Source: Motilibacter peucedani
GTDB taxonomy: Bacteria > Actinomycetota > Actinomycetes > Motilibacterales > Motilibacteraceae
Length of the DNA stretch: 64,000 nucleotides
Direction of reading: 5' to 3'
Assembly: GCF_003634695.1 (NCBI RefSeq)
Contig: NZ_RBWV01000011.1
Location: forward strand, 62,001 to 126,000
Part shown: positions 6,640 through 62,500 of the stretch, in pieces
Numbering within the stretch: the first letter of the stretch is position 1
How the letters are laid out: the number at the start of each line of letters is the position of its first letter
Translations under genes and position numbers: made by a program
Notes under the pieces: generated by a model
Seen by the model: only the letters and a program-made list of their open reading frames with translations
Told to the model about the DNA's origin: nothing
Databases searched by the model: none

Positions 6640-8651
<2,012 letters not shown>

Positions 8652-49905: not shown

Positions 49906-50565
49906 CTACTGACCCAGGTTCGTGAGCAGGCTGACGGCGACCGCGATCACCACCGTCCCGAACAGGTAGGAGAGCAGGGCGTGGCCCAGGCCCACCTTGC
50001 GCAGCCCGCGGCTGGTGAACCCGTCGTCGGCCACCGCGTACGACATCCCGACCGTGAACGCGAGGTAGGCGAAGTCGCTGTAGGCGGGCGGGTCCTCCTG
50101 CGAGAAGTCGATGCCGCCGTCGCCACCGGCGAAGTAGAGGCGTGCGTACTTCAGTGCGAAGACGGTGTTGACCAGCGCCCAGGACACGATGGCGTCGAGG
50201 ACGCATAGCAGGACGGTCACCACCCCGACCGCGTCGTGCCGGGCCGCGCCGACCAAGGCCTGCACGACCGCGGCGAGGCTGGCGACTGCTGCCGCGAGGA
50301 CCATGCCGTCGGTGGCTCGGGTGCTGCCCTCGTCCTCGGCCAGGCGCTTCGTGCCCCGGTGGTCCTGCGGCCAGCTGATCCGCCACACCCACACCAGCAC
50401 CGCAGAGGCGCCACTGCCCCAGCCCACCAGGACGGCGAGCTGGGGCAGACCGAGCGCTGCCACGACCGCGCCCACCACGACCCCGCCCGCGAGCGACAGC
50501 AACAGCCGGCGGGAGGACAGGATCCGGCGCCCCGACGTGCGTGGCCGCTCCCGGACGTAGCTCAC
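49906..50565 (-). CDS. DUF1345 membrane protein
   Basis: A 219-residue protein with five hydrophobic helices: LLLSLAGGVVVGAVVAALGL, LAVLVGWGSGASAVLVWVWR, VLAAAVASLAAVVQALVG, VVTVLLCVLDAIVSWALVNTVFALKYARLYF and GTVVIAVAVSLLTNLG. The motif FSQEDPPAYSDFAYLAFTVGMSYAVAD is the DUF1345 signature. The function is unknown. GTG 50565 overlaps the stop of the DJ-1 gene, so it is the last gene of the dehydrogenase-DJ-1 operon and may be a membrane partner. Confidence 0.87.
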   Translation of the reverse strand: MSYVRERPRTSGRRILSSRRLLLSLAGGVVVGAVVAALGLPQLAVLVGWGSGASAVLVWVWRISWPQDHRGTKRLAEDEGSTRATDGMVLAAAVASLAAVVQALVGAARHDAVGVVTVLLCVLDAIVSWALVNTVFALKYARLYFAGGDGGIDFSQEDPPAYSDFAYLAFTVGMSYAVADDGFTSRGLRKVGLGHALLSYLFGTVVIAVAVSLLTNLGQ

Positions 50566-51110
50566 GCGCGCTCCGCGAACTCCTGCACGATGCGGTCGCA
50601 GAAGGCCGGCAGGTCGTCGGGCGACCGGCTCGTGGTGATGTTCCCGTCGGTGACGACCGGCTCGTCGACGACCTCCGCCCCGGCGTTGTGCAGGTCGGTG
50701 CGCAGGCTGGGGAAGGAGGTCAGCCGACGACCGCTGACCACGCCGGCCTCGACCAGCGACCACGGTCCGTGGCAGATCGAGGCGACGGGCTTGCCTGACT
50801 CGACGAAGCTCCGCACGAACTGGACTGCTGTGGGCTCCATCCGCAGCTTGTCCGGGTTCACCGTGCCTCCTGGCAGGAGCAGGGCGTCGTACTCGTCCAC
50901 GGACGCACTGCCCACAAGCCGATCGACGCCGAAGCTGCCCGCGTCCTCGAGGTCGTTGTTCCGCGCCGCTACCTCGCCGTCCCTGATCGACAGGACCTCC
51001 GTGCTCGCCCCTGCGTCGTCGAGCGCTCGACGAGGCTCCTCCAGCTCGACGCGTTCCACACCGTCGGCTGCCAGGATGGCGACACGCCGGCCTTCCAACC
51101 GCCCAGCCAT
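50562..51110 (-). CDS. DJ-1/PfpI-family protein (class I glutamine amidotransferase-like)
   Basis: A 182-residue PfpI/DJ-1 protein: RRVAILAADGVERVELEEPRRALDDAG, DALLLPGGTVNPDKLR, and the nucleophile elbow ASICHGPWSLVEAG with the catalytic Cys. Members act as stress-protective deglycases, glyoxalases or proteases on methylglyoxal-type damage. It starts directly behind the formaldehyde-dehydrogenase-like gene, which supports aldehyde or glyoxal detoxification. A paralogue is at 59.6 kb. Confidence 0.9.
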   Translation of the reverse strand: MAGRLEGRRVAILAADGVERVELEEPRRALDDAGASTEVLSIRDGEVAARNNDLEDAGSFGVDRLVGSASVDEYDALLLPGGTVNPDKLRMEPTAVQFVRSFVESGKPVASICHGPWSLVEAGVVSGRRLTSFPSLRTDLHNAGAEVVDEPVVTDGNITTSRSPDDLPAFCDRIVQEFAERA

Positions 51111-52265
51111 TCAGGCGCCTGACATCTGGGGCTTGAGGACGACCTTCGTCCAGCCGTCGTCGCGGTTGTCGAAGTGCTCGTAGGCCTCCGGGGCCCGCTC
51201 GAGCGGCAGCTGGTGGCTGACGATGAAGGAGGGTTCCGCCTTCCCGGCGGCGATCAGGTCGCGCAGCTGGCGGTTGTACTTCTTCACCGGTGCCTGCCCG
51301 CTCCCGATGTGCTGGCCCTTGAACCAGAACATGCCGTAGTCGAAGGCGAGCTTGCCCTGCTTGGCCAGCTCGTCCTTGCCGCCGGGGTCCTGCGGCACGA
51401 AGACACCGACGTTGCCGATCCTGCCCGTGAAGCGCACGGACGCGACGAGCCGGTTCATCGTCTGGTTCGGCTGCTCCTCGCCGTCAGGCTCGTGCGCCTG
51501 GTAGCCGACGCACTCGCAGCCGTTGTCGGCTCCGAGCCCCATCGTCTGGTCGAGCACGGCCTGGACAGGGTCGACCTTCGAGTCGTCGATGGCGATGGCG
51601 CCGATGGACTCGGCCAGGCGCAGCCGGTCGGGGTGCCGGTCCACCACCATCACCTTGCTGGCTCCCCGGATGGTCGCCGAGAGCGCTGCCATCAGCCCGA
51701 CCGGGCCGGCGCCGTAGATGACCGTCTGGTCCCCGGGCTGCACACCGGCCAGTTCGGTGGCGTGGTATCCGGTGGGGAAGATGTCAGCCAGCATCACGTA
51801 GTCCGCGGACTTCTCGTCGGCGTCCTCCCCCAGGCGCAGGCAGTTGAAGTCACCCCACGGCACGCGCAGCAGCTCCGCCTGCCCCCCTGCCCAGGGGCCC
51901 ATGTCGGCGAACCCGTAGGCGGCGCCGGCCCACTCCTTCTTCGGCTGTGCGGTCAGGCAGTAGTTGGTGAGCCCTCGTTCACAGTTCTTGCAGTGCCCAC
52001 AAGCGATGTTGAACGGAAGGACGACGTGGTCGCCGACCTGGACCTTGTCCACGCCGTCGCCGACCGCGATGACCTCGCCCATGTTCTCGTGCCCGAACCA
52101 GCGACCGGCCTCGAAGTCGGTCCGGCCCTCGTACATGTGCAGGTCCGAACCGCAGATGTTGGTCGTGGTGATCCGCACCAGGACATCGGTCGAGCGCTCG
52201 ATGCGGGCATCGGGCACGTCCTGGACGCTGACCTTGCGCGGGCCCTCGTAGACGACTGCTCTCAT
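51111..52265 (-). CDS. Zinc-dependent alcohol dehydrogenase, glutathione-independent formaldehyde-dehydrogenase-like
   Basis: A 384-residue MDR enzyme. Catalytic zinc: NICGSDLHMYEG and WFGHENMGEV; structural zinc: CGHCKNCERGLTNYC; NAD-binding YGAGPVGLMAALSATIRGASKVMVVDRHPDRL. The long C-terminal insertion (ECVGYQAHEPDGEEQPNQTMNRLV) is characteristic of glutathione-independent formaldehyde dehydrogenases (PFDH). It probably oxidises formaldehyde or related aldehydes, or dismutates them with bound NAD. First gene of the operon with DJ-1 and DUF1345; a 24-bp dyad lies 95 bp upstream. Confidence 0.92.
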   Translation of the reverse strand: MRAVVYEGPRKVSVQDVPDARIERSTDVLVRITTTNICGSDLHMYEGRTDFEAGRWFGHENMGEVIAVGDGVDKVQVGDHVVLPFNIACGHCKNCERGLTNYCLTAQPKKEWAGAAYGFADMGPWAGGQAELLRVPWGDFNCLRLGEDADEKSADYVMLADIFPTGYHATELAGVQPGDQTVIYGAGPVGLMAALSATIRGASKVMVVDRHPDRLRLAESIGAIAIDDSKVDPVQAVLDQTMGLGADNGCECVGYQAHEPDGEEQPNQTMNRLVASVRFTGRIGNVGVFVPQDPGGKDELAKQGKLAFDYGMFWFKGQHIGSGQAPVKKYNRQLRDLIAAGKAEPSFIVSHQLPLERAPEAYEHFDNRDDGWTKVVLKPQMSGA

Positions 52266-52348
52266 GCTGTGACCTCGCTCTGCGGAGGTGTCGCCGGTCC
52301 TTGTGCCGACGGCGGTGTCCTCATCTGACACCGGGCGCGAGCAGCGGC

Positions 52349-52372
52349 GGTATCGGCAGACCTGCCCATCCC
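52349..52372. promoter_or_regulatory. 24-bp dyad, copy A (arms GGTATCGGCAG / CTGCCCATCCC)
   Basis: Two 11-bp arms around a 2-base AC centre; 9 of 11 arm positions are symmetric. Centre is 95 bp upstream of the formaldehyde-dehydrogenase start and 54 bp upstream of the DUF2254 start, so it lies in a divergent promoter region. It matches copies B and C closely. Confidence 0.65.
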
Positions 52373-52413
52373 GCGGGCGGCGGGCCCTTCGTCGGACGGG
52401 GTAGTCCCCTCGC

Positions 52414-53744
52414 ATGACCTTGTTGCGACTGCAGCGCTTCGTCCGCACCAGCATGTGGCTCCGTCCGCTCGGCTGCCTGGGGGCAGGCGTCCTGGCCGCC
52501 GTCGCCACGCTCGCCTGGACCGTGCGACGGACTACGGGCTCGTCCCGCAGAGCGTGACCGGGACACCGTCCGACGCGCAGACGATCCTCTCGTCCTTCGC
52601 CACGGCGATGGTGTCGCTGACCTCGCTCGTCCTCACGGTCACGCTGGTGGCGGTCCAGCTGGCGATGGGCCAGTTCTCGCCCCGCATCGTCGGAGCACTG
52701 CTGGCAGACCGCTGGAGCCAGCTGGCGAGCGGCCTGTTCGGCGCGAGCTTCGTGGTCGCGGTGCTGACCCTCAGGGAGATCCACGACTCCGGGGACGGGA
52801 CGGTCCCAGGTGTCTCGGTGCTGCTGTCCTACGCGCTCATGCTCGCGAGCATCGTGGTCCTGGTGCTCTACGTGCACCACGCCGGCCAGGGCCTGCGCGT
52901 CGCGGGGCTGATCGACCTCGTGGGCGACCGCACCAGGGAGATCATCGTCCGGACGCACGGCGACCCACCGGCCACCAGCGCCACGGACGTGATCGCCGCC
53001 CCTGAGCCCGGCAACGTGACGCGCGTCGACCGCGCGGCGCTGGTCGCCGCCGCCCGACGAGCCGACTGCCTGCTGGAGCTGGTGCCCGTGGTGGGCGACT
53101 TCGTCGTCGGCGGTGCCCCGCTGCTCCGCGTGCACCAGCGGCCCGGCTGGGCGGGTGCCGGCGCGCCGGGACGCATCGGTGCTGCGGAGCTCACCCGTCA
53201 CGTCCTCCTCGGCGGAGAGCGGGTGCACACCGAGGACCTGGCGTACGGGTTCCGCAAGCTCGTCGACATCGCCGTGCGGTCCGTCGCGCAGCCGTTCAAC
53301 GACCCGACGACGGCGGTCCAGGCGCTGCACCGGTTGCACGACCCCCTGCGCCAGCTGGCCCCCCGCCCCCTCCCGGGCGGTGAGCACCGGGACGAGGACG
53401 GCGTCGTGCGCCTGGTCGAGCGGGTCATGAGCTGGGACGGCTACGTGCGGTTGGCGTTCGACGAGGTCCGCCTGGCCGGGGCGTCGGAACCACAGGTCAC
53501 CAGGAGGATCTGCGCCGCGCTCGACGACCTCAGGAGCGTCGCACCGCCGCACCGGCAGGAACCGTTGGAGCGTCAGCTCCGCCTGCTTGAGGCGGCTGTC
53601 CGCCGCACCTACGAGGACGAGGAGGACGCAGTCGCAGCGCTCACCCCGGACACCGAGGGCATCGGGTCAGGAGCAGACGTCACCGTGGCGGCTACGCAGA
53701 CGGACGGAACACCGCACGGACGCACCCGTCCTCCTTCTCCTTGA
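52414..53744 (+). pseudogene. DUF2254 membrane protein gene with frameshift
   Basis: The natural start is ATG 52414, in a frame reading RLQRFVRTSMWLRPLGCLGAGVLAAVATLAWTV, a typical DUF2254 N-terminus, but that frame ends in about 14 more codons. From about 52515 the frame one base over carries the rest of the family: DRATDYGLVPQSVTGTPSDAQTILSSFATAM, LVLTVTLVAVQLAMGQFSPRIV, ASFVVAVLTLREIHD and a soluble tail up to 53744. A single deleted base between about 52515 and 52530 would restore one gene of about 440 residues. Family function unknown. The 3' end overlaps the convergent dehydrogenase by 53 bases. Confidence 0.72.
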
Positions 53745-54867
53745 ACATCCGGTAGCCCTTCGGACCCTCGTCGAGGGACATGACGTGCGTGGCGAGGTGC
53801 TCGGTCTTCACCTCGTCCCGGCTCATGCGCTCGAGGATCTCTGGGATGTAGCGGTGCCCGTGCTGCTGGGCGCCGCGCAGGGTCAGGGCCTTGTTCATGA
53901 CCGCACCGAGCGGGAACTTGTCCACGAGACCGGCGAAGACGCCCAGCGTGAACACCGTCCCTCCCTTGCGACAGGCGCAGATCGCCTCACGGACCGCCGT
54001 CGGCCGGTCGGTCTGCAGCCGCATCTGCTGCTTGACCATGTCGTAGGCGAACTGCGGTCCCGGGCTGTGCGCCTCCATCCCCACGGCCTCGATGCAGACG
54101 TCGGGGCCTCTTCCGCCGGTCAGCTCACGGAGCTCGGCAGGGACGTCGACCTGCTCGTAGTGCAAGGTCTCCGCGCCGATGTGCGCGCGTACCTGCGCCA
54201 GGCGGTTGTCGAACCGGTCGATGACCACGACCCGCTCGGCGCCCTTGAGCACGGCCGCGCGCGCTGCCATCTGCCCGACTCCACCGGCCCCCCACACCGC
54301 GACGACGTCACCTGGCTGGACGCCGGCCTGGTCGGCGCCGGTCCAGCCGGTGGGCGCGGCGTCGGAGGCGAAGAGCGCCCGCTCGTCGGACACGCCGTCG
54401 GGGATGGCGAAGGCGCCCTGGTCCGCGTACGGCACGCGGATGTAGGGAGCGTGGCTGCCCGCCCACCCGCCCAGCGCGTGCGAGTACCCGTAGCACCCGC
54501 CGATCGCCTGGCCCCACAGCGCCTCGGTGATCCCGGGGTTGGGGTTGCCGTTGTCGCACAGGGACCACAGCCCCTGCCGGCAGTACCAGCACTGCCCGCA
54601 GCTGGTGAAGGAGACCACGACCACGCGGTCCCCGACCCGGTGCTTGGTCACGGCTCGGCCGACCTCGGCGACGGTGCCCATGAACTCGTGCCCCAGCACG
54701 TCCCCCGCCCGCATCGCCGGGATGTAGCCGCCCATCAGGTGCAGGTCGGAGCCGCAGGTCGCGGAGAGCCCCACCTGGACGATCATGTCGTGGTCGTTGT
54801 GGATCGTGGGTTCGGGCACGTCCTCGACGCCGATCTCGTTGACCCCCCGCCACGTCACGGCCTTCAC
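53692..54867 (-). CDS. Zinc-dependent alcohol dehydrogenase (paralogue 2)
   Basis: A 391-residue MDR enzyme: KAVTWRGVNEIGVEDVPEPTI, catalytic zinc ATCGSDLHLMGGYIPAM and GHEFMGTV, structural zinc SCGQCWYCRQGLWSLC, NAD site WGAGGVGQMAARAAVLKGAERVVVIDRFDNRL, then the FDH-type insertion MVKQQMRLQTDRPTAVREAI. It is closest in type to paralogue 3 (57.2 kb). GTG 54867 overlaps the stop of the 161-residue gene, so it is translated with it. Substrate is probably an aldehyde or small alcohol. Confidence 0.92.
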   Translation of the reverse strand: MKAVTWRGVNEIGVEDVPEPTIHNDHDMIVQVGLSATCGSDLHLMGGYIPAMRAGDVLGHEFMGTVAEVGRAVTKHRVGDRVVVVSFTSCGQCWYCRQGLWSLCDNGNPNPGITEALWGQAIGGCYGYSHALGGWAGSHAPYIRVPYADQGAFAIPDGVSDERALFASDAAPTGWTGADQAGVQPGDVVAVWGAGGVGQMAARAAVLKGAERVVVIDRFDNRLAQVRAHIGAETLHYEQVDVPAELRELTGGRGPDVCIEAVGMEAHSPGPQFAYDMVKQQMRLQTDRPTAVREAICACRKGGTVFTLGVFAGLVDKFPLGAVMNKALTLRGAQQHGHRYIPEILERMSRDEVKTEHLATHVMSLDEGPKGYRMFKEKEDGCVRAVFRPSA

Positions 54868-55349
54868 CGCACACCCGCCTTCGGGGCCACCCTGGTCCAC
54901 GCCTCGAGCAGCAGGCCTCCGGGGGTGGCAGTCCGCCTGCCGTGCGGCACCGGGTCCACGGCGAGGACCTCACCCACCTCGACGACCTGCTTGGCCTGGC
55001 GCAGCGCACTCCGCACGTCGGCCTGCGGGTCGTGGCCGCTCAAGCGGCTCAGGGCTCCCGACGACCCGCGGTCACGAAGCCGTGCCGCCAGCTCGGTGCC
55101 CTTGCCGCCGGGCGCCGGGCGGACCCGGACCTCGACCCGGTCACCCAGCTCGGCCAACGGTGCCGGCAGGTGCGCCGTGTCGAGCGCGGCCTGCTCGCAG
55201 AAGACGGTCACCGCGAGCCAGCCGGAGGCCGGCTGTCCCGGACCGGCGGCTCTCGCGCCGGACGGGTCGATGGCCGAGCGCACCTGGCGCACGACGGTGC
55301 CGCCGGCGCGGGCTGCGAGTGAGGCCACGCCCCCTACGGCGGACGTCAT
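54864..55349 (-). CDS. Unknown protein (161 residues) paired with dehydrogenase 2; possible SRPBCC relative
   Basis: No family recognised with confidence. It contains a GDRVEVRVRPAPGGKGTELAARL stretch that resembles GEVRFVPAPGARGTEVHVRL of the SRPBCC protein paired with dehydrogenase 3 (56.7 kb), so it may be a diverged relative. The N-terminal 30 residues are Ala/Val-rich (SAVGGVASLAARAGGTVVRQVRSAI). Translationally coupled to dehydrogenase 2 (GTGA overlap), which suggests a partner or helper role, perhaps substrate delivery. Confidence 0.6.
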   Translation of the reverse strand: MTSAVGGVASLAARAGGTVVRQVRSAIDPSGARAAGPGQPASGWLAVTVFCEQAALDTAHLPAPLAELGDRVEVRVRPAPGGKGTELAARLRDRGSSGALSRLSGHDPQADVRSALRQAKQVVEVGEVLAVDPVPHGRRTATPGGLLLEAWTRVAPKAGVR

Positions 55350-55399
55350 GCCGCACCACCCGCGGACGTCACAAGTGCTCCGTCGAGGTCTCGTGCCAT
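55346..55399 (-). CDS. Possible 17-residue leader ORF before the 161-residue gene
   Basis: ATG 55399 has a very good ribosome site (AGGAGCACGAG) and the ORF MARDLDGALVTSAGGAA ends in a TGA overlapping the ATG of the 161-residue gene (ATGA). It may be a translational-coupling leader or the trace of a degraded gene. The product itself shows no motif, so the reality of the peptide is uncertain. Confidence 0.35.
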   Translation of the reverse strand: MARDLDGALVTSAGGAA

Positions 55400-55481
55400 C
55401 TCGTGCTCCTGTCGCCGGCTCGACGACGGCGCCGGGCGCGACGCCGTCCACGTCCATCGGACACCCGTGCCGCGCGCCGGT

Positions 55482-55505
55482 GGTATGGGCAGACCTGCCG
55501 ATACC
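55482..55505. promoter_or_regulatory. 24-bp dyad, copy B (arms GGTATGGGCAG / CTGCCGATACC)
   Basis: The most symmetric copy: 10 of 11 arm positions pair, with the same AC centre as copy A. It lies between the 161-residue/dehydrogenase-2 operon (centre 94 bp from ATG 55399) and the GAF-LuxR regulator (88 bp from GTG 55582), so it could serve both divergent units. Confidence 0.7.
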
Positions 55506-55581
55506 ACGACCGCGCGGTTCCCTTGCAGGAGTGCGCGTGGCACGGTCGCAGTGTCGGTACGCAGCAGCTACGGAGGCCAGC

Positions 55582-56601
55582 GTGAGTGCACAACGTGCAG
55601 ACGTGAGCGCGCTGCGGGTCGAGATGCAGCACGTCGCCGCCGAGCCGGCTCCCGCCGACGTCCGGGCCGCGCAGGTGCTCGACGCACTGCGACGCGTGCT
55701 GCCGTTCGACGCGGGCTGGCTGGCCGTGCGCGACCCCGAGCGGCGGTGCCACACGCCGCTGGCCACGGTCGGCTCCGCAGACCCCCTGCGTCGCTACTTC
55801 CGCACACCGGAGGCCGACACCGAGGTCGAGCAGCTCGGCCTCAACCGCGAGCGCGGGCCGATGCTGACCAGCGACATCCCGGTCCCCCTCCCCGAGCTGA
55901 AGGCATGGGGGGAGCACCTGCTGCCGGCCGGGTTCCGCAGCGGTCTGGCCGTAGGGCTGTTCACCTCCGGCGGCCGGCATGTGGGCTTCCTGAGCCTGTT
56001 GAGCGACGACGAGCAGGGGCTGGACTCGAGGGACCGGCGCATCGTCGCTGTCGTCAGCTCGCTCGTCGCCGACGGGCTCGACCGGGCCGGGGAGATCGCC
56101 GAGACGGCGCGCGTGGTGGAGGCGGCTGCCGCCGGGGTCGTGCTGACCCGCGGGGGCGACGTCCTGCCCCTCCCGGGGCTGAGAGAGGACCGCCTGCTGG
56201 CCCGGGGCTCCCGCGTCCTCGTGGCCGCGGAGCGCGAGCTGGCCGCGGGCGGTCCGCGTACGAGCTTCCTCGCAGCCACCGGAGTCGAGAGCGAGCTCCT
56301 CGTCCGCGTCACCGCGGTCCAGTGCGCGGTCCCGCACCTCGACCACCTCGTCGCTGCGGTGCTCCTCTCCCCGCCCGGCGACCAGCGCGCACTGGGCCCG
56401 CTGGAGCTGCGGGTGCTCGGGCTGGTGGTCGACGGGACGACGTCGGTCCCGGCCATCGCGGCTGAGCTCGGCGTGAGCGCCGACCGGGTCGCCGAGGCGC
56501 TGGACGCGGCCCTGCTCGCCCTGTCGGCGGCCGACCTCCCGGCCGCGGCGGCACGGGCGCTGCGCACGGGGCTGCGGATCCCTCCGATGCTGCGCGACTG
56601 A
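55582..56601 (+). CDS. GAF-domain LuxR-family regulator, intact paralogue
   Basis: A 339-residue protein. N-terminus (about 30-190): GAF-like sensor (LDALRRVLPFDAGWLAVRDPERRCHTPLATVGSADPLRRYF split, then GRHVGFLSLLSDD). C-terminus: LuxR HTH (LGPLELRVLGLVVDGTTSVPAIAAELGVSADRVAEALDAALLAL). The HTH is atypical: the usual T/SxREXEVL start is PLELRVL and the recognition helix is degenerate. It resembles the interrupted paralogue at 58.6 kb in length and order. GTG 55582 has a good GGAGG ribosome site. It probably controls the surrounding dehydrogenase genes. Confidence 0.82.
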   Translation: MSAQRADVSALRVEMQHVAAEPAPADVRAAQVLDALRRVLPFDAGWLAVRDPERRCHTPLATVGSADPLRRYFRTPEADTEVEQLGLNRERGPMLTSDIPVPLPELKAWGEHLLPAGFRSGLAVGLFTSGGRHVGFLSLLSDDEQGLDSRDRRIVAVVSSLVADGLDRAGEIAETARVVEAAAAGVVLTRGGDVLPLPGLREDRLLARGSRVLVAAERELAAGGPRTSFLAATGVESELLVRVTAVQCAVPHLDHLVAAVLLSPPGDQRALGPLELRVLGLVVDGTTSVPAIAAELGVSADRVAEALDAALLALSAADLPAAAARALRTGLRIPPMLRD

Positions 56602-56615
56602 GGTCGGGCACCGCC

Positions 56616-56639
56616 GGGATCGGTCGTTCTGCCGATGGC
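56616..56639. promoter_or_regulatory. 24-bp dyad, copy C (weaker; arms GGGATCGGTCG / CTGCCGATGGC)
   Basis: The right arm CTGCCGAT matches copy B exactly; the left arm is 8 of 11 to copy A. Centre is about 86 bp upstream of the SRPBCC start (56714), the same distance class as the other copies. Confidence 0.5.
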
Positions 56640-56713
56640 GCATGACCTGCGCAGCGCGATGTGCTGCTGTGCGCAGCCCTCACCGGACCCGTCGGAAGGA
56701 GAGCAGGACCGCG

Positions 56714-57253
56714 ATGGAACTGACCTCGGCCACGACCGTCACCAGGACACCGGAGGAGGTGTACGCCTTCTGGCAGCAGCTCGAGCAGCTGCCGTCGTTC
56801 ATGGCGCACCTCGATGACGTGCGCCGGACAGGACCCGGCCGCAGCCACTGGAAGGCCAACGCGCCCTTCGGTCGAGTCGTCGAGTGGGACGCCGAGACCA
56901 TCGACGACGTCCCTGGCCAGCGCATCGCCTGGCGCTCCCTCGAAGGTGCCGACGTCCCCAACTCCGGTGAGGTGCGCTTCGTGCCGGCGCCGGGCGCCCG
57001 GGGCACCGAGGTGCACGTGAGGCTGAGCTACGAGGTGCCGGGCGGCGCGCTCGGCAGGGCCGCGGCGAAGTACTTCGGCGAGGAGCCCTCCCAGCAGCTC
57101 GACGACGACCTGCGCCGCTTCAAGCAGGTGATGGAGACCGGTGAAGTGGTCCGCAGCGACGGGGCGCCCAGGGGCAAGCAGGCCCGCGAGGAGTTCCCTC
57201 AGCACCCCGCCCGCCCGCTCAGCGACGACGAGCGCAAGGAGGTCCTGGCGTGA
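56714..57253 (+). CDS. SRPBCC-family protein (cyclase/dehydrase-like)
   Basis: A 179-residue START-like protein: SATTVTRTPEEVYAFWQQLEQLPSFMAHLDDVRRTG, VVEWDAETIDDVPGQRIAWRSL, GEVRFVPAPGARGTEVHVRLSYE, ending with a helix (DDDLRRFKQVMETGEV) and an acidic/basic tail. The type is frequently next to zinc-dependent alcohol dehydrogenases in actinobacteria. Its stop overlaps the GTG of dehydrogenase 3. The role is unknown; ligand binding or scaffold for the dehydrogenase is inference. ATG preceded by an AGGAGAGCAGG tract. Confidence 0.87.
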   Translation: MELTSATTVTRTPEEVYAFWQQLEQLPSFMAHLDDVRRTGPGRSHWKANAPFGRVVEWDAETIDDVPGQRIAWRSLEGADVPNSGEVRFVPAPGARGTEVHVRLSYEVPGGALGRAAAKYFGEEPSQQLDDDLRRFKQVMETGEVVRSDGAPRGKQAREEFPQHPARPLSDDERKEVLA

Positions 57254-58425
57254 AGGCCAACTGCTGGATGAGCGCGAACGAGGTCGAGGTCCAGGAGGTC
57301 CCGGACCCGACGATCCTGAACAGCCGCGACGCGATCGTCAAGATCACCAGGACGGCGATCTGCGGCTCCGACCTGCACCTGCTCGACGGCTACGTGCCGA
57401 CGATGCAAGAGGGCGACGTCATGGGCCACGAGTTCATGGGCGAGGTGGTCGAGGTCGGGCCCGGGGTCGCCGGCGACAAGCTCCGCGTGGGCGACCGGGT
57501 CGTCGTGCCGTTCCCCATCGGGTGCGGCGCCTGCTACGCCTGCCAGCACGAGCTGTGGTCCTGCTGCGAGAACACCAACCCGAACGCGGGCATCGCCGAG
57601 AAGATGTTCGGCCACCCCGTGGCGGGCATCTACGGCTACTCGCACCTCACCGGTGGCTTCGCCGGCGGCCAGGCGGAGTACGCGCGTGTGGTCTTCGCGG
57701 ACGTCAACCCGCTGAGGATCGAGTCGGACCTCACCGACGAGCAGGTGCTCTTCCTCTCCGACATCCTGCCGACGGGCTACATGGGTGCTGAGATGTGCGA
57801 CATCACCGACGGGGACGTGGTCGCCGTGTGGGGCGCCGGGCCGGTCGGGCAGTTCGCCATGGACAGCGCCCGGTTGCTGGGAGCGGCGAGGGTGATCGTC
57901 ATCGACGACGTGGCGTACCGGTTGGAGATGGCGGCGTCGCAGGGCTACGACACGATCGACTTCTCGGACACCGACGTGCGCTCGGCGCTGCTCGAGCTGA
58001 CCGGCGGCCGCGGGCCCGACAAGTGCATCGACGCGGTCGGCCTCGAGGCCACCCACGGCGCTGCGCACGTGAACCTCTACGACCGGGCCAAGCAGGCCGT
58101 CCGCTCGGAGACGGACCGGCCGCACGCCCTGCGCCAGGCGATCACCTCGTGCCGCAGCGGCGGCATCGTCTCGGTGATCGGCGTCTACGGCGGCTTCGTC
58201 GACAAGTTCCCGGCCGGCTCGTGGATGAACCGGGCCCTGACGCTGAGGACGGGCCAGTGCCACGTGCAGCGGTACATGCGTCCCCTGCTCCAGCGCATCG
58301 AGCGCGGCGAGATCGACCCCACGCGGATCATCACCCACCGCCTGCCGCTGTCCGAGGCGCCGCACGGCTACGACATCTTCAAGAACAAGGAGGAGGGCTG
58401 CGAGAAGGTCGTCCTGACGCCCTGA
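57250..58425 (+). CDS. Zinc-dependent alcohol dehydrogenase (paralogue 3), formaldehyde-dehydrogenase-like
   Basis: A 391-residue MDR enzyme: KANCWMSANEVEVQEVPDPTILNSRDAIV, catalytic zinc AICGSDLHLLDGYVPTM and GHEFMGEV, structural zinc GCGACYACQHELWSCC, NAD site WGAGPVGQFAMDSARLLGAARVIVIDDVAYRL, and the FDH-type insertion YDRAKQAVRSETDRPHALRQAI. It is of the same type as paralogue 2, suggesting duplication of a partner-plus-dehydrogenase unit. Substrate likely an aldehyde. Confidence 0.92.
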   Translation: MKANCWMSANEVEVQEVPDPTILNSRDAIVKITRTAICGSDLHLLDGYVPTMQEGDVMGHEFMGEVVEVGPGVAGDKLRVGDRVVVPFPIGCGACYACQHELWSCCENTNPNAGIAEKMFGHPVAGIYGYSHLTGGFAGGQAEYARVVFADVNPLRIESDLTDEQVLFLSDILPTGYMGAEMCDITDGDVVAVWGAGPVGQFAMDSARLLGAARVIVIDDVAYRLEMAASQGYDTIDFSDTDVRSALLELTGGRGPDKCIDAVGLEATHGAAHVNLYDRAKQAVRSETDRPHALRQAITSCRSGGIVSVIGVYGGFVDKFPAGSWMNRALTLRTGQCHVQRYMRPLLQRIERGEIDPTRIITHRLPLSEAPHGYDIFKNKEEGCEKVVLTP

Positions 58426-58489
58426 TGTCGCGATCCCGGGACGCCGCACCTCTGGTCAGGACCGGTCGGGTTGCGAGACCGCACCGAAG

Positions 58490-58499
58490 GGTATATACC
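58490..58499. promoter_or_regulatory. Perfect 10-bp palindrome GGTATATACC
   Basis: The palindrome consists of the outer parts of the 24-bp dyad (GGTAT and ATACC) joined directly. Its centre is about 91 bp before GTG 58586 of the interrupted LuxR gene, the same distance as the other dyads, so it may be a shortened version or a coincidence. Confidence 0.4.
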
Positions 58500-58585
58500 G
58501 CCCGGTCGAGAACACGGCCCCCGCCGAAGAGCGCTGAGCGTGTCGTCCACGACGCGGCAGCGTCGATCGGACGGGGAGGATCCTC

Positions 58586-59596
58586 GTGAGCCTGGGAAGC
58601 GCAGAGCTGGCCGATCTCGCCGCCTCGACGTGCGCGCCTGGCGACAGGGCGCTCAGCATGCTGGAGAGCCTCCGCCGTCGCGTGCCCTTCGACGCCGCAT
58701 GGCTGGCGCTCGCCGACCCCGGCAGCAGCGTCGGCTACGCCTCGCTGGCCAGCGTGGACCTGCCGCAGGGCACCGAGCGCTACCTCCTGGGTCCCCGGAT
58801 GGCGCACGACATCGAGCAGACGGGGACCAACCGTGCGCGCCCCCCGCTGAGCCCGTCCGACCTGCCCTATCCCGCTGAGACGCTGCCGACCTGGGCCGAG
58901 TGCCTCCACCCGGCGGGCTTCCACGAAGCGCTGGCCGTCGCCCTCTTCGACGGCCAGCGCCATGTTGGGTTCCTCGCGCTGCTGTCGGAAGCCACGCGAC
59001 CACCCGACGCGGCGGTGCGGCGCGAGCTGCAGCAGCTCACCCCCCTGCTGACCCGAGGTGCGGACCCGATGCGACCGCTGGCCGCGGCTGCACGGGTGGT
59101 CGGCGGTGCAGCCGCCGGCATCGCCCTGTGCTGCAGCGGCGCGCAGCTGCCAGTCCCAGGACTTCCGGACGACGCGCTGCTCGTGGACGGCTCACCCGTC
59201 GTGACGATCGCGCGCTCGTGAATGGAGGACGGTCAGGTCTACGCGTCGTTCCTGTGGCCGCTCGGCGGCCGGCACGCTCCTGACGGGCACGTGCGGGTGA
59301 CCGTCCTCGGCAGCGCCGAGCACGAGTCGACGAGCCTGCTGGGGACGGTGGTCCTCTCGCCGGCGAACCACCTGCGCGGACTCACTCCTCGCGAACTGGA
59401 GGTCCTCGGGCTGCTCATCGACGGCCGCTCGAACGCGCAGATCGCCCGCGCGCTCGTCGTCGCCCAGCGCACGGTCGCGGCGCACCTGGAGCACATCCTC
59501 GCCAAGCTGGGGGCGCCGAGCCGGACGCTGGCAGCCGTACGCGCGACCCGTGAGGGTCTGTACGTGCCAGCGTCCCCGCTGCCCCGCCGGGCGTGA
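58586..59596 (+). pseudogene. GAF-LuxR regulator interrupted by an in-frame TGA
   Basis: Read through, the gene is 337 codons including the stop, versus 340 in the paralogue at 55.6 kb, with the same GAF order (ESLRRRVPFDAAWLALADPGSSVGYASL, GQRHVGFLALLSE). It ends in a canonical LuxR HTH (LTPRELEVLGLLIDGRSNAQIARALVVAQRTVAAHLEHILAKLG split). A TGA at 59219-59221 splits it; the next codon is an ATG, TGAATG, with no ribosome site. GTG 58586 has GGGGAGGA. It may be a nonsense mutation, a sequence error, or a split sensor/effector by termination-reinitiation. Confidence 0.72.
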
Positions 59597-59634
59597 GCCC
59601 GGTCGGCACGACACCCGGTCACGAAGGAGACGAC

Positions 59635-60345
59635 ATGCTCAGCAGGCGCAGGCTCAAGGGCAGGCGGATCGCTGCCCTGGCAGCCGACGGCTTCGAGAAG
59701 GTGGAGCTGCTCGTCCCGCTGCGGGCCCTCGAGGCCGCCGGAGCCGAGGTCGACGTCGTGTCCCTGCGGCGCGGACGCATCCGTGGGGTCAACCTGCACA
59801 TGCCCGCGAGCCGGGTCCGCGTGGACGAGGTGCTCGGGCGAGCCGACCCCGAGGACTACGACGGGCTGCTGCTCCCCGGCGGCTTCATCAACCCCGACCT
59901 GTTGAGGCAGTCCGCCCATGCTCGCGAGTTCGTCCGCGGGTTCGCCGTGCGCGACAAGCCCATCGCCACCCTCTGCCACGGTCCGTGGGTGCTGGCGTCC
60001 GCGGGCTTCCTGACGGGGCGGACCCTCACGTCGTGGCCCGGCATCCGTGACGACCTGGTCAACGCCGGCGCCACCTGGCTAGACCAGGAGCTGGTGCGGG
60101 ACGGCAACCTCACGACGAGCAGAGGACCGCAGGACATGGCCGCGTTCGTCCGCGGCATGCTCGACGCCTTCGCGAACGAGCCGGCGACGCCTCCTCCACC
60201 TCGCGAGTCCGACCGGCAGCCCGAGGAGCCCGTGGGGTGGGCCGTTGCGGCGTTGCGCTGGTCCCCCAAGCCGTCGACCGCCGCCGCGGCGGGCATCGGC
60301 GTGGCCGCTGCCGTCCACCGTGCTCTGCGCGGCTCGGCGGGGTAG
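59635..60345 (+). CDS. DJ-1/PfpI-family protein with C-terminal extension
   Basis: A 236-residue protein: RRIAALAADGFEKVELLVPLRALEAAGAEVDVVSL, DGLLLPGGFINPDLLR, and the nucleophile elbow ATLCHGPWVLASAG with the catalytic Cys. It is similar to the DJ-1 at 50.6 kb but has about 50 more residues (PPPPRESDRQPEEPVGWAVAALRW, then AAAAGIGVAAAVHRAL), a proline linker and a hydrophobic helix that may anchor it. The AAGGAG ribosome site marks ATG 59635. Likely stress role against carbonyl damage. Confidence 0.87.
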   Translation: MLSRRRLKGRRIAALAADGFEKVELLVPLRALEAAGAEVDVVSLRRGRIRGVNLHMPASRVRVDEVLGRADPEDYDGLLLPGGFINPDLLRQSAHAREFVRGFAVRDKPIATLCHGPWVLASAGFLTGRTLTSWPGIRDDLVNAGATWLDQELVRDGNLTTSRGPQDMAAFVRGMLDAFANEPATPPPPRESDRQPEEPVGWAVAALRWSPKPSTAAAAGIGVAAAVHRALRGSAG

Positions 60346-60830: not shown

Positions 60831-61187
60831 ATGGCCAAGTACGCGATCCTCATCTACGAAGACCCGGCCTTCTACACGGACGCGTCGCCCGAGGCGTGGA
60901 GCGCGGTGCTCGACGCGCACAATGCGTTCGCCAAGCAGGTCTTCGAGCTCGGCGGGTCCATCGAGGGCGGGGCGGCGCTCGCACCCACGACGACAGCCAC
61001 CACGCTCAAGGGTGGCGGCACTGTGACGGACGGCCCGTTCGTCGAGACCAAGGAGGCCCTCGGCGGCTTCTACATCGTCGAGGCGCGCGACCTCGACCAC
61101 GCCGTCGAGATCGCCACGCAGTGCCCGGCCCCCGGTGGCGGCGTCGAGGTCCGCCCGGTCGTGGACCCGACGACGAACCCGTTCTGA
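60831..61187 (+). CDS. YCII-related (DGPF-domain) protein
   Basis: A 118-residue YCII-domain protein: KYAILIYEDPAFYTDASPEAWSAVLDAHNAFAKQV, VTDGPFVETKEALGGFYIVEARDLDHAVEIA and the terminal GGGVEVRPVVDPTTNPF. The DGPF motif is at the centre. It forms a pair with the ECF42 sigma factor immediately downstream, a fixed combination in actinobacteria where the YCII protein is thought to be part of the signal system. ATG has an AGGAGGC ribosome site. Confidence 0.93.
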   Translation: MAKYAILIYEDPAFYTDASPEAWSAVLDAHNAFAKQVFELGGSIEGGAALAPTTTATTLKGGGTVTDGPFVETKEALGGFYIVEARDLDHAVEIATQCPAPGGGVEVRPVVDPTTNPF

Positions 61188-62500
61188 ACGCTCCCGGCGA
61201 CGAGCCGACCGCGTCCGCCACGCAGGCGGACGCGGTCGCTGCCGCGCTCGCGCAGGCCCACCGCTCCGAGTGGGCCTTCGTGCTGTCCGCCACCGTGCGC
61301 GTCGCGGGCGACCTCGACCTCGCGGAGGAGTGCGCGCAGGAGGCGTACGTCCGCGCACTGCAGGCCTGGGCCCGCGACGGCGTGCCGGAGCGGCCCGGCG
61401 CGTGGCTGACCACGGCGGCGCGGAACCAGGCGCTCGACCGGTTGCGACGCGAGGTCACCCTCCGGCGCAAGCTCCCGCTGCTGGTGGAGCCGGCGACCGT
61501 CGATCCGCCCGACCCCGCCGAGCTCGACCGGCTCGACGACGCGGTGCCGGACGACCGGCTCCGGCTGGTGTTCACCTGCTGCCACCCCGCCCTCGCCCCC
61601 GAGGCCCGCGTCGCCCTCACCCTGCGCCTGGTCTGCGGCGTTCCCACGCCCGACGTCGCACGGGCCTTCCTGGTGGCCGAGCCGACGATGGCGGCACGGA
61701 TCACCCGCGCGAAGAAGAAGATCTCCGCAGCGCGGATCCCCTACCGCGTCCCCAGCCGGGCGGAGCTGCCCGAGCGACTGGACAGCGTGCTCACCGCCGT
61801 CCACCTGCTGTACAGCACCGGCCACACGGCCGGCGAGGGGGACGCGCTCGTCCGCGAGGACCTCTGCGACCGGGCCCTGCACCTCGCGCGCACCCTCGCC
61901 GCGCTGCTGCCCGAGCAGGCCGAGACCCGCGGCCTGCTGGGACTGCTGCTCCTCACCGACGCGCGCCGGGCGACCCGTACCGACGAGCAGGGCAGGCTCA
62001 TCCTGCTCGCCGACCAGGACCGGACGCGCTGGGACCAGCGCGCGGTCCTGGAGGGGCTCACCGTGACGGCAGGGGCGCTGGCGTCCGGCCCACCTGGGCG
62101 GTTCACCCTGCAGGCGGCGATCGCCGGCGTGCACGCGATCGCTCCATCTCTGCAGCGGACGGACTGGCCGCGGGTCGTGCACCTCTACGACCGGCTGCTG
62201 ATGGTGTGCGACACCCCGGTGGTCGCGCTCAACAGGGCCGCCGCCGTGGCGTTCGCCGACGGTCCGGCCGCCGCCCTGCCGCTCCTCGACGAGCTGGCGA
62301 CCGACCCGCGGCTCGCCGACTACCCCTACCTGCCTGCCACCCGCGCCGACCTGCTGCGCCGACTCGGCGACACCGCCGGCGCAGCTCAGTCGTACCGGCG
62401 CGCGATCGAGCTCACAGCGAACGCCGCGGAGCGCGCCTTCCTCGAGCGACGCCTGGCCGAGGTCGACCGCGCCGCCGGCGCCGACCCCATGCCCGGTTGA
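61184..62500 (+). CDS. ECF42-type RNA polymerase sigma factor
   Basis: About 438 residues: sigma region 2 (WAFVLSATVRVAGDLDLAEECAQEAYVRALQAWARDGVPERPGAWLTTAARNQALDRLRRE split), region 4 (RVALTLRLVCGVPTPDVARAFLVAEPTMAARITRAKKKI), then a long C-terminal TPR-like extension (about residues 190-438: VLTAVHLLYSTGHTAGEGD to RRAIELTANAAERAFLERRLAEVD). This is the ECF42 layout, always next to a YCII gene. The likely start is CTG 61184, overlapping the YCII stop as CTGA; no ATG or GTG is available before the conserved region. CTG is uncommon but fits. Confidence 0.88.
   Translation: MNAPGDEPTASATQADAVAAALAQAHRSEWAFVLSATVRVAGDLDLAEECAQEAYVRALQAWARDGVPERPGAWLTTAARNQALDRLRREVTLRRKLPLLVEPATVDPPDPAELDRLDDAVPDDRLRLVFTCCHPALAPEARVALTLRLVCGVPTPDVARAFLVAEPTMAARITRAKKKISAARIPYRVPSRAELPERLDSVLTAVHLLYSTGHTAGEGDALVREDLCDRALHLARTLAALLPEQAETRGLLGLLLLTDARRATRTDEQGRLILLADQDRTRWDQRAVLEGLTVTAGALASGPPGRFTLQAAIAGVHAIAPSLQRTDWPRVVHLYDRLLMVCDTPVVALNRAAAVAFADGPAAALPLLDELATDPRLADYPYLPATRADLLRRLGDTAGAAQSYRRAIELTANAAERAFLERRLAEVDRAAGADPMPG

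Follow-up and report, generated by a model that had tools for sequence, protein, structure and literature searches.

A conserved dyad as the candidate operator of a GAF-LuxR activator before formaldehyde dehydrogenase-like and DJ-1 genes in Motilibacter peucedani and other actinomycetes

In this study, we analysed a 64,000-nucleotide stretch of the Motilibacter peucedani genome (contig NZ_RBWV01000011.1, positions 62,001 to 126,000; in our numbering G000:C11:62001-126000), referred to below as the window; the genome that holds it comprises 4.19 Mb in 17 contigs. The window contains an island of genes for three zinc alcohol dehydrogenases (ADHs) related to formaldehyde dehydrogenase (FDH1, FDH2 and FDH3), two DJ-1/PfpI proteins (DJ1a and DJ1b), an SRPBCC protein and a possible relative of it (SRPBCC-like), DUF1345 and DUF2254 proteins, and two paralogues designated GAF-LuxR1 and GAF-LuxR2. 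A palindromic element (dyad) of 24 bp precedes several of these genes, and a preliminary description of this DNA had suggested that one regulator, perhaps the GAF-LuxR pair, controls all units of the island through it. Based on comparative sequence analysis, it appears fairly probable that the dyad is the operator of GAF-LuxR2, a LuxR/NarL-type one-component activator, which would serve class II activation of a carbonyl-detoxification and protein-repair regulon. What the sequences show directly is a conserved motif that has a direction, stands at a fixed distance from a -10-like element and co-occurs with GAF-LuxR genes.

The two strong copies described previously at 52349 and 55482 (dyads A and B) are present with one and no mismatches to the 24-bp pattern, respectively, and 0.00 matches of this quality are expected in shuffled windows. 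When the whole genome was scanned with the pattern, as had been proposed, only three places were found at up to three mismatches, namely A, B and C17:9790 (three mismatches), and the reversed-pattern control gave none, so that A and B are the only near-perfect copies genome-wide. The refined 18-bp core, ATSGGCA-N4-TGCCSAT, is matched exactly at five genome positions: A, B, C17:9793, C17:10198 and C13:417283. Random scatter of the motif could be rejected from the genome scan and from the counts in other genomes given below. C17:10198 and C13:417283 are located 67.5 bp before two ABM-family paralogues (starts set from their shared N-terminus), and the latter heads an ABM-aldo/keto reductase pair. 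On the minus strand, C17:9793 faces the genes DUF308-DnaK-GrpE-DnaJ-HspR-ClpB-thioredoxin-UBP-thioredoxin reductase, among which DUF308 and thioredoxin reductase were assigned by Pfam and the others named by eye; a -10-like hexamer stands at the usual offset, and the called DUF308 start is ~295 bp away. In the sister species (G001; genomes and loci used for comparison carry G and L numbers), three exact cores were observed, before FDH1 (107.5 bp), an aldo/keto reductase gene (89.5 bp) and DJ1b (117.5 bp, measured to an ATG at position 9288 of L030, as the gene caller placed the start further in). DJ1b lies inside the island in the window genome, and its G001 relative (80% identical) is located elsewhere with a dyad of its own.

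The weaker dyad reported at 56616 (site C) is not a close match to the 24-bp pattern. However, it represents a conserved second form of the motif, ATSGGTCGNNCTGCCGAT, which retains the promoter-proximal half-site: its sequence, ATCGGTCGTTCTGCCGAT at 56619-56636, has no mismatch to the variant pattern and precedes the same gene, SRPBCC, in G001, L053, L059 and L067. At up to two mismatches, the variant pattern gave four matches in the window (A, B, C and one at 6672) compared with 0.09 expected. The shortened copy at 58490 (D, GGTATATACC) is rare for this GC-rich window (0.02 expected at up to one mismatch). Since the CGGCA core is missing from D and the 251 bases before and into the G001 orthologue showed nothing similar, we did not count it in the motif family; D might instead belong to the promoter of GAF-LuxR2 as an AT-rich element. 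Most of the reported spacings were reproduced, with centres 95.5 (A to FDH1), 88.5 (B to GAF-LuxR1), 86.5 (C to SRPBCC) and 91.5 bp (D to GAF-LuxR2) from the start codons. The value of 94 bp given for the other side of B, however, leads only to a 17-codon open reading frame (ORF; 55399-55346, minus strand) that starts 94.5 bp from dyad B and whose stop overlaps the SRPBCC-like start (ATGA); the SRPBCC-like gene itself starts 144.5 bp away.

A GAF-LuxR profile scan with one genome per species returned 35 loci, from taxa that include Geodermatophilaceae, Pseudonocardia, Nocardioides, Aeromicrobium, Cellulomonas, Kineococcus, Intrasporangiaceae and Amnibacterium. Gene calling and blastp revealed that the gene order FDH1-DJ1a-SRPBCC-like-FDH2-DUF1345 is common to many loci, often divergent from GAF-LuxR, and in several genera a dyad lies between divergent FDH1 and GAF-LuxR. 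With up to one mismatch, the core was found at 34 sites in 25 of the 35 loci, compared with 0-1 for each of 25 permuted half-sites. In 39 loci (these 35 and L029-L032), 45 of the 46 sites of the S-degenerate core at this threshold were intergenic, while 87.1% of the bases are genic (binomial P = 3.5e-39, relatedness ignored). By eye, the consensus could be sharpened to CGGTATCGGCA-N4-TGCCGATACCG, where N4 is often GACA, GACC or GATC. Eight GAF-LuxR-bearing genomes contained 19 core matches with at most one mismatch versus a total of three for the reversed controls; 15 of the 19, as well as 17 of the 21 exact cores in a Geodermatophilaceae sample, were within ~25 kb of GAF-LuxR (in the latter sample, of GAF-LuxR or FDH1) according to manual counts.

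With at most one mismatch, the dyad occurs within 300 bp upstream of 10 of the 14 Geodermatophilaceae FDH1 orthologues (nine exact, one with a single mismatch) and of 18 of the 19 FDH1 genes from G001 and the 35-locus set, whose genomes are partly shared with the Geodermatophilaceae set. Its centre is 82-99 bp from the called FDH1 start in 21 of the 29 rows with a dyad, the window included (range 58.5-127.5; the lowest value comes from L053, where the called start differs from that of the same gene in L116, which gives 91.5). No upstream dyad was found for the FDH1 paralogues (58-64% identity) in the 16 examined of 28 listed, the best matches having 3-6 mismatches. Conservation before orthologous enzyme genes in many genera, together with concentration near the island, gives good support to the idea that one regulator acts on several units.

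We then compared the distribution of dyad, GAF-LuxR and FDH1 in 76 Geodermatophilaceae genomes. The exact core is present in 14 of them (none for the reversed control), FDH1 orthologues (at least 80% identity) in 14, and a GAF-LuxR gene, full or broken, in 17 by manual reading of the profile matches. GAF-LuxR and FDH1 occur together in 13 of the 14 genomes that hold an exact dyad, and the remaining one (G426) has neither; only one of the 62 genomes without an FDH1 orthologue holds the dyad. G433 possesses GAF-LuxR and FDH1 but no exact dyad. With phylogeny ignored, Fisher p is 2e-10 for the dyad with GAF-LuxR and 1e-12 for the dyad with FDH1. The proposal of a single regulator for all units is sustained in part: for several units it is well supported by comparative data, and the dyad tracks GAF-LuxR within one family; D drops out, and the association is weaker across the class (see below).

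To what side of the dyad transcription is directed could be judged from the promoters. In 28 FDH1 promoters aligned on the dyad, a conserved hexamer (TGCAAT, TGTAAT, TCAGAT or similar) was found 23 nt past the core in most, and no -35 hexamer was seen in them apart from the edge of the dyad. Under the rule T...AT or TA...T, and with sides lacking a listed enzyme gene within 260 bp left out (including those that face only DUF2254 or GAF-LuxR), a -10-like hexamer is present at offset 23-25 on 28 of 38 enzyme-facing sides versus 0 of 34 other sides, with 0-1 at other offsets. Both L174 and L178, which were fetched after the rule was set, show it. If the hexamer is the -10 element, the dyad would be centred near -44, where a class II activator would sit; the spacing fits an operator at ~-42 without a -35 element, for a promoter predicted from sequence. 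The position of the -10-like element on the enzyme side further suggests that A serves FDH1 and B the SRPBCC-like/FDH2 unit, and the sides facing GAF-LuxR1 and DUF2254 in the window carry no such element. For the counted sites we therefore rejected the earlier view that each dyad controls both flanking units. Some DUF2254-facing sides elsewhere have a similar hexamer, such as L068 and the variant site of G001. At site C, no hexamer of this kind stands out clearly at the expected distance.

The same geometry could be read as that of a repressor operator, in which a dimer over the -35 region blocks the promoter until a signal releases it, as the dyad covers the -35 position and a repressor might do so too. 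However, the aligned promoters lack a recognisable -35 hexamer and have a weak -10, as would be anticipated for promoters that depend on an activator. The dyad keeps a constant distance to the -10, and DosR and NarL, whose helix-turn-helix (HTH) domains are related, are activators at sites in such promoter positions. Repression thus seems rather unlikely.

Among the two GAF-LuxR paralogues, GAF-LuxR2 is the better candidate for an activator. It has a GerE HTH (PF00196, 1.5e-17 in the window fragment and 4.1e-16 in G001) that is strongly conserved across genera; in profile comparison, VraR, DosR and NarL are among its best matches of solved structure. Its GAF part has no Pfam match of its own and was named through full-length alignment with GAF-LuxR1, which matches GAF_2 (5.5e-9) and has no GerE HTH by Pfam. 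Thus the previous naming of two GAF-LuxR proteins holds for the GAF domain of one and the HTH of the other, but GAF-LuxR1 has no Pfam HTH and GAF-LuxR2 is split into two ORFs in the window. In neither protein did Pfam detect a receiver or an autoinducer-binding domain. A structural model of G001 GAF-LuxR2 (pLDDT 88.8) retrieved phytochrome sensor modules and LuxR proteins by Foldseek at low TM-score, with no hint of a ligand. Two recognition-helix residues, H302 and H305 (G001 numbering), are invariant in 13 GAF-LuxR2-type proteins and missing in all eight GAF-LuxR1-type proteins (window, L029, L035, L036, L037, L042, L050 and L051), some of which retain other residues (the R-T pair in L036 and L051, a glutamate in L029). 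Without these histidines and a Pfam HTH in GAF-LuxR1, the two proteins are unlikely to bind as a pair, in contrast to the previous suggestion; GAF-LuxR1 may be a modulator.

An activator of this kind resembles several known regulators. LuxR solos and GAF/PAS one-component activators share with GAF-LuxR2 an N-terminal sensor-like domain and a C-terminal GerE HTH, although GAF-LuxR2 has no match to the autoinducer-binding domain of quorum-sensing LuxR proteins. OsdR of Streptomyces and DevR/DosR of Mycobacterium likewise have a LuxR/NarL-type HTH, and DosR chains are among the best profile matches of GAF-LuxR2; however, OsdR and DevR are two-component response regulators, whereas GAF-LuxR2 has a GAF-like domain and no receiver match. 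According to the accessible text of the OsdR study (PMC5069765), the OsdR consensus is AGGGCCGATCGGCCCT, whose inner half-core is similar to that of the dyad, as is expected for a LuxR/NarL-type HTH, while the outer bases of ATSGGCA-N4-TGCCSAT differ. The same text places OsdR sites 81-158 bp before the start codons of stress genes that include a zinc ADH; several OsdR targets are universal stress proteins, in contrast to the carbonyl-detoxification and protein-repair genes behind the dyad.

These similarities leave room for another LuxR/NarL-type regulator of the DevR/OsdR kind acting at the dyad, with GAF-LuxR2 as a mere member of the island. Besides the resemblance in consensus, upstream position and a zinc ADH unit among the targets (PMC5069765, as far as its accessible text goes), all 76 Geodermatophilaceae genomes have at least five LuxR-type profile matches each, mostly to the HTH part among the matches listed. 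On the other hand, the exact dyad is missing in 62 of these 76 genomes in spite of LuxR-type HTH proteins in all of them, and it tracks GAF-LuxR and FDH1; the outer half-site is ATC in the dyad versus AGG in the OsdR consensus found in that text. Another LuxR/NarL-type regulator at the dyad is unlikely, although no search aimed at DevR-type proteins was made.

With regard to mechanism, we infer that GAF-LuxR2 binds the dyad, that it thereby activates transcription and that it responds to carbonyl or desiccation stress. GAF-LuxR2 would consist of an N-terminal GAF-like sensor domain and a C-terminal LuxR/NarL-type HTH, and its dimer would occupy the 24-bp dyad, centred ~44 bp upstream of the predicted transcription start, where it would fill the place of the missing -35 hexamer and recruit RNA polymerase to the weak -10. 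Predicted targets in the window are FDH1-DJ1a-DUF1345 (from A), SRPBCC-like-FDH2 (from B) and probably SRPBCC-FDH3 (from the variant site C); outside the window they would comprise the ABM genes, aldo/keto reductase, DJ1b and possibly the DUF308-DnaK-GrpE-DnaJ-HspR-ClpB-thioredoxin operon. Such a regulon would detoxify carbonyl compounds and repair damaged protein.

Several observations weigh against this assignment. In the window genome itself, GAF-LuxR2 is interrupted by a stop codon (a TGA with an ATG directly after it, leaving two ORFs in one frame; G001 has no stop), so the switch may be impaired in this strain or may run on a separate 124-residue HTH fragment. The hexamer rule was chosen after the FDH1 promoter alignment had been viewed, and outside FDH1 the -10-like hexamer was found on just 7 of 14 enzyme-facing sides. 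Two of the 14 Geodermatophilaceae FDH1 orthologues (L128 and L129) are free of the dyad and two have it with two mismatches, and three genomes (G442, G445 and G474) contain GAF-LuxR without an FDH1 orthologue or an exact dyad (in G442, a one-mismatch dyad lies ~1 kb from GAF-LuxR). The GAF-LuxR count in this family involves judgement: G439 was included on fragments (132 and 113 bits), and the near-full-length G415 and G404 (131 and 119 bits) were left out; Fisher p for the dyad with GAF-LuxR becomes 2e-9 with G415 and G404 included and 5e-9 without G439, again with phylogeny ignored. Since the locus search was seeded with GAF-LuxR, adjacency in those loci is partly built in; the 76-genome and the class-wide samples were assembled without this seed.

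In the class-wide sample of 393 genomes, the association is also weaker: the exact core occurs in 35 genomes and GAF-LuxR (E ≤ 1e-40) in 13, with both in four (Fisher p 0.02). In three of these four (G000, G001 and G201) the core adjoins island genes, and G279 carries it on a different contig; among the matches listed, exact cores mostly have other centres and presumably arose by chance. A class-wide scan with the 24-mer at three mismatches was abandoned as too noisy (matches in at least 112 of the 393 genomes). We fetched 12 GAF-LuxR regions from this sample (L174-L185). The full operon with an exact dyad was found in L174, and a one-mismatch dyad 91.5 bp before FDH1 in L178. Also in favour of the assignment, L182 has a divergent GAF-LuxR, no FDH1 in its 9.4 kb, and a one-mismatch dyad without a -10 at 81.5 bp before GAF-LuxR. 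Two-mismatch sites were seen before GAF-LuxR in L176 and away from island genes in L175, as well as in L181 and L184 (57.5 bp before GAF-LuxR in L184), the last two being uncounted. Less favourable to GAF-LuxR2 as the binding protein are L180, with only a variant site that lies 124.5 bp before FDH1 and has no -10, L179 (G296), where GAF-LuxR and the operon are present and no dyad was found at up to two mismatches, and L177, L183 and L185, in whose GAF-LuxR regions no dyad was found.

A further point is that a conserved LysR-type gene, divergent from or near GAF-LuxR, is present in part of the loci (L037, L038, L042, L044, L045, L046, L050, L051, L053 and L067), and its product might bind the dyad instead. 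This gene (66-69% identical to that of L038) neighbours GAF-LuxR in 10 loci, including nine of the 27 loci with a dyad, but it is absent from the examined stretch in the other 18, among them Cellulomonas, Kineococcus and Nocardioides (the rest of these genomes was not searched). Moreover, LysR-type sites follow a T-N11-A rule, and the even centre of the dyad does not give a symmetric site of this form; we consider LysR binding very unlikely. That the dyads, near-perfect palindromes as they are, should be repeats or RNA hairpins without regulatory meaning is hardly credible, given the few copies per genome, the conserved position before orthologous genes and their location upstream of the -10-like element and so outside the predicted transcript.

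As for the enzymes, the best NCBIfam family of FDH1, FDH2 and FDH3 is TIGR02819 (glutathione-independent formaldehyde dehydrogenase, with the structures 1kol and 4jlw), but all three are far below its equivalog cut-off of 636.95 (328, 153.9 and 192.7 bits, respectively); FDH1 matches PDB 4jlw at 1.1e-86. Both DJ-1/PfpI proteins exceed the TIGR01382 cut-off of 139.05, with 149.5 and 151.4 bits. The most economical reading of ADHs, aldo/keto reductases, DJ-1 and perhaps DnaK-ClpB under one site is a response to carbonyl and protein damage, and the enzyme families would point to an aldehyde or electrophile as inducer. The accessible text of a drying transcriptome of Curtobacterium (PMC12029717) reports induction of aldo/keto reductases, a glutathione-independent formaldehyde dehydrogenase and LuxR genes; these possibly orthologous genes would lend indirect support to a stress response. 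It is probable from the sequences that the detoxification and protein-repair genes preceded by a dyad are switched on together. More tentatively, and with somewhat less than an even chance in our view, they would form a patchily distributed, undescribed one-component regulon of actinomycetes, in which a GAF-like sensor joined to a NarL-type HTH would itself perceive a small molecule that signals protein or carbonyl damage, one dyad would drive zinc dehydrogenases, DJ-1 deglycases, SRPBCC, aldo/keto reductases and DnaK-ClpB, and a paralogue with a degenerate HTH would tune the response.

A regulon under a LuxR-type activator is of a known kind, and the member formed by the dyad and GAF-LuxR2 is undescribed as far as our literature searches show. 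Searches on the genes, proteins, DUFs and GAF-LuxR returned no description of the motif or of a GAF-LuxR regulon (most subscription papers are outside their coverage), and the 14- and 18-mer motif strings returned no motif description, one 14-mer occurring once in a C. elegans study according to the search listing. Of 72 papers that share one of six motif strings, the 15 listed contain neither a 14-mer nor an 18-mer. In the accessible main text of a census of actinobacterial LuxR proteins (PMC3466318), the word GAF is absent. A large group of 'orphan' stress genes (formaldehyde dehydrogenase-like enzymes, DJ-1, SRPBCC, DUF1345 and DUF2254) is common to actinobacteria of soil and other habitats, such as Geodermatophilus, Blastococcus, Kineococcus and Cellulomonas. 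For these genes, the dyad provides a concrete candidate operator together with a promoter geometry and a putative sensor, and it makes their signal directly testable.

The features of the island are listed in Table 1. Pfam bore out the gene content reported previously (DUF1345, two DJ-1/PfpI proteins, three zinc ADHs, DUF2254 and SRPBCC), and the possible relative of SRPBCC turned out to be a truncated one.

Table 1. Genes and predicted regulatory sites of the island, in window coordinates
Feature	Position	Strand	Remarks
DUF1345 membrane protein	49906..50568	-	PF07077; last gene of the FDH1 unit
DJ1a, DJ-1/PfpI/YhbO-type	50562..51110	-	PF01965; TIGR01382 above cut-off
FDH1, zinc ADH related to glutathione-independent formaldehyde dehydrogenase	51111..52265	-	328 bits versus cut-off 637; 4jlw, 1kol
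-10-like hexamer TCAGAT	52323..52328	-	23 nt past dyad A core; promoter inferred
Dyad A	52349..52372 (18-bp core 52352-52369)	-	1 mismatch to 24-bp pattern, core exact; centre 95.5 bp before FDH1 start; predicted activator site for FDH1-DJ1a-DUF1345; kept before FDH1 orthologues
DUF2254 gene, 5' part frameshifted	52414..53744	+	Pfam; open in G001
FDH2, zinc ADH	53692..54870	-	Pfam; 154 bits, under TIGR02819 cut-off
SRPBCC-like, truncated SRPBCC relative	54864..55349	-	hhalign probability 97.9% to SRPBCC; no Pfam match
-10-like hexamer TCCGAT	55456..55461	-	23 nt past dyad B core
Dyad B	55482..55505 (core 55485-55502)	-	0 mismatches; predicted activator site for SRPBCC-like/FDH2 unit
GAF-LuxR1	55582..56601	+	GAF domain; no recognisable Pfam HTH
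Site C, variant dyad	56616..56639 (core 56619-56636)	+	Kept in G001, L053, L059, L067
SRPBCC protein	56714..57253	+	PF03364/PF10604
FDH3, zinc ADH	57250..58425	+	Pfam; 193 bits, under TIGR02819 cut-off
GAF-LuxR2, candidate activator	58586..59596	+	In-frame TGA 59219-59221; N part 58586-59221, HTH part 59222-59596
DJ1b, second DJ-1/PfpI protein	59635..60345	+	Pfam

Two genes of the island read as disrupted in the window sequence. Relative to G001, the DUF2254 gene carries a frameshift in its 5' end (52414-52554), and this frameshift and the split of GAF-LuxR2 may each be an assembly error or mark a pseudogene, or, for GAF-LuxR2, a working split. Compared with G001, dN/dS is ~0.3 in both halves of GAF-LuxR2, 0.4 in GAF-LuxR1 and 0.1 in FDH1; the value of ~0.3 fits a recent pseudogene and a working split alike. 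Split or partial GAF-LuxR2 matches were also observed in G403, G433, G439, G465 (L037) and G474, which may reflect decay, recoding or assembly error.

Pattern matches in G006, G012 and G036 were treated as chance; at the G006 match, the ORFs look like an ABC transporter and an IMP dehydrogenase by eye. Around the one-mismatch sites of G002 genes were called, and no related gene was recognised by eye (a profile or similarity search was not run). With respect to the chaperone genes, a dyad with a -10-like element also faces a DUF308-DnaK-GrpE-DnaJ-HspR-ClpB-Trx operon in L031, and the DnaK-ClpB operon, whole or in part, is found in the same stretch as GAF-LuxR2 in L038, L039, L044, L045, L055 and L059. 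Past the island, the window holds a YCII-domain gene and a sigma-70-family gene with DUF6596 (60831-62500).

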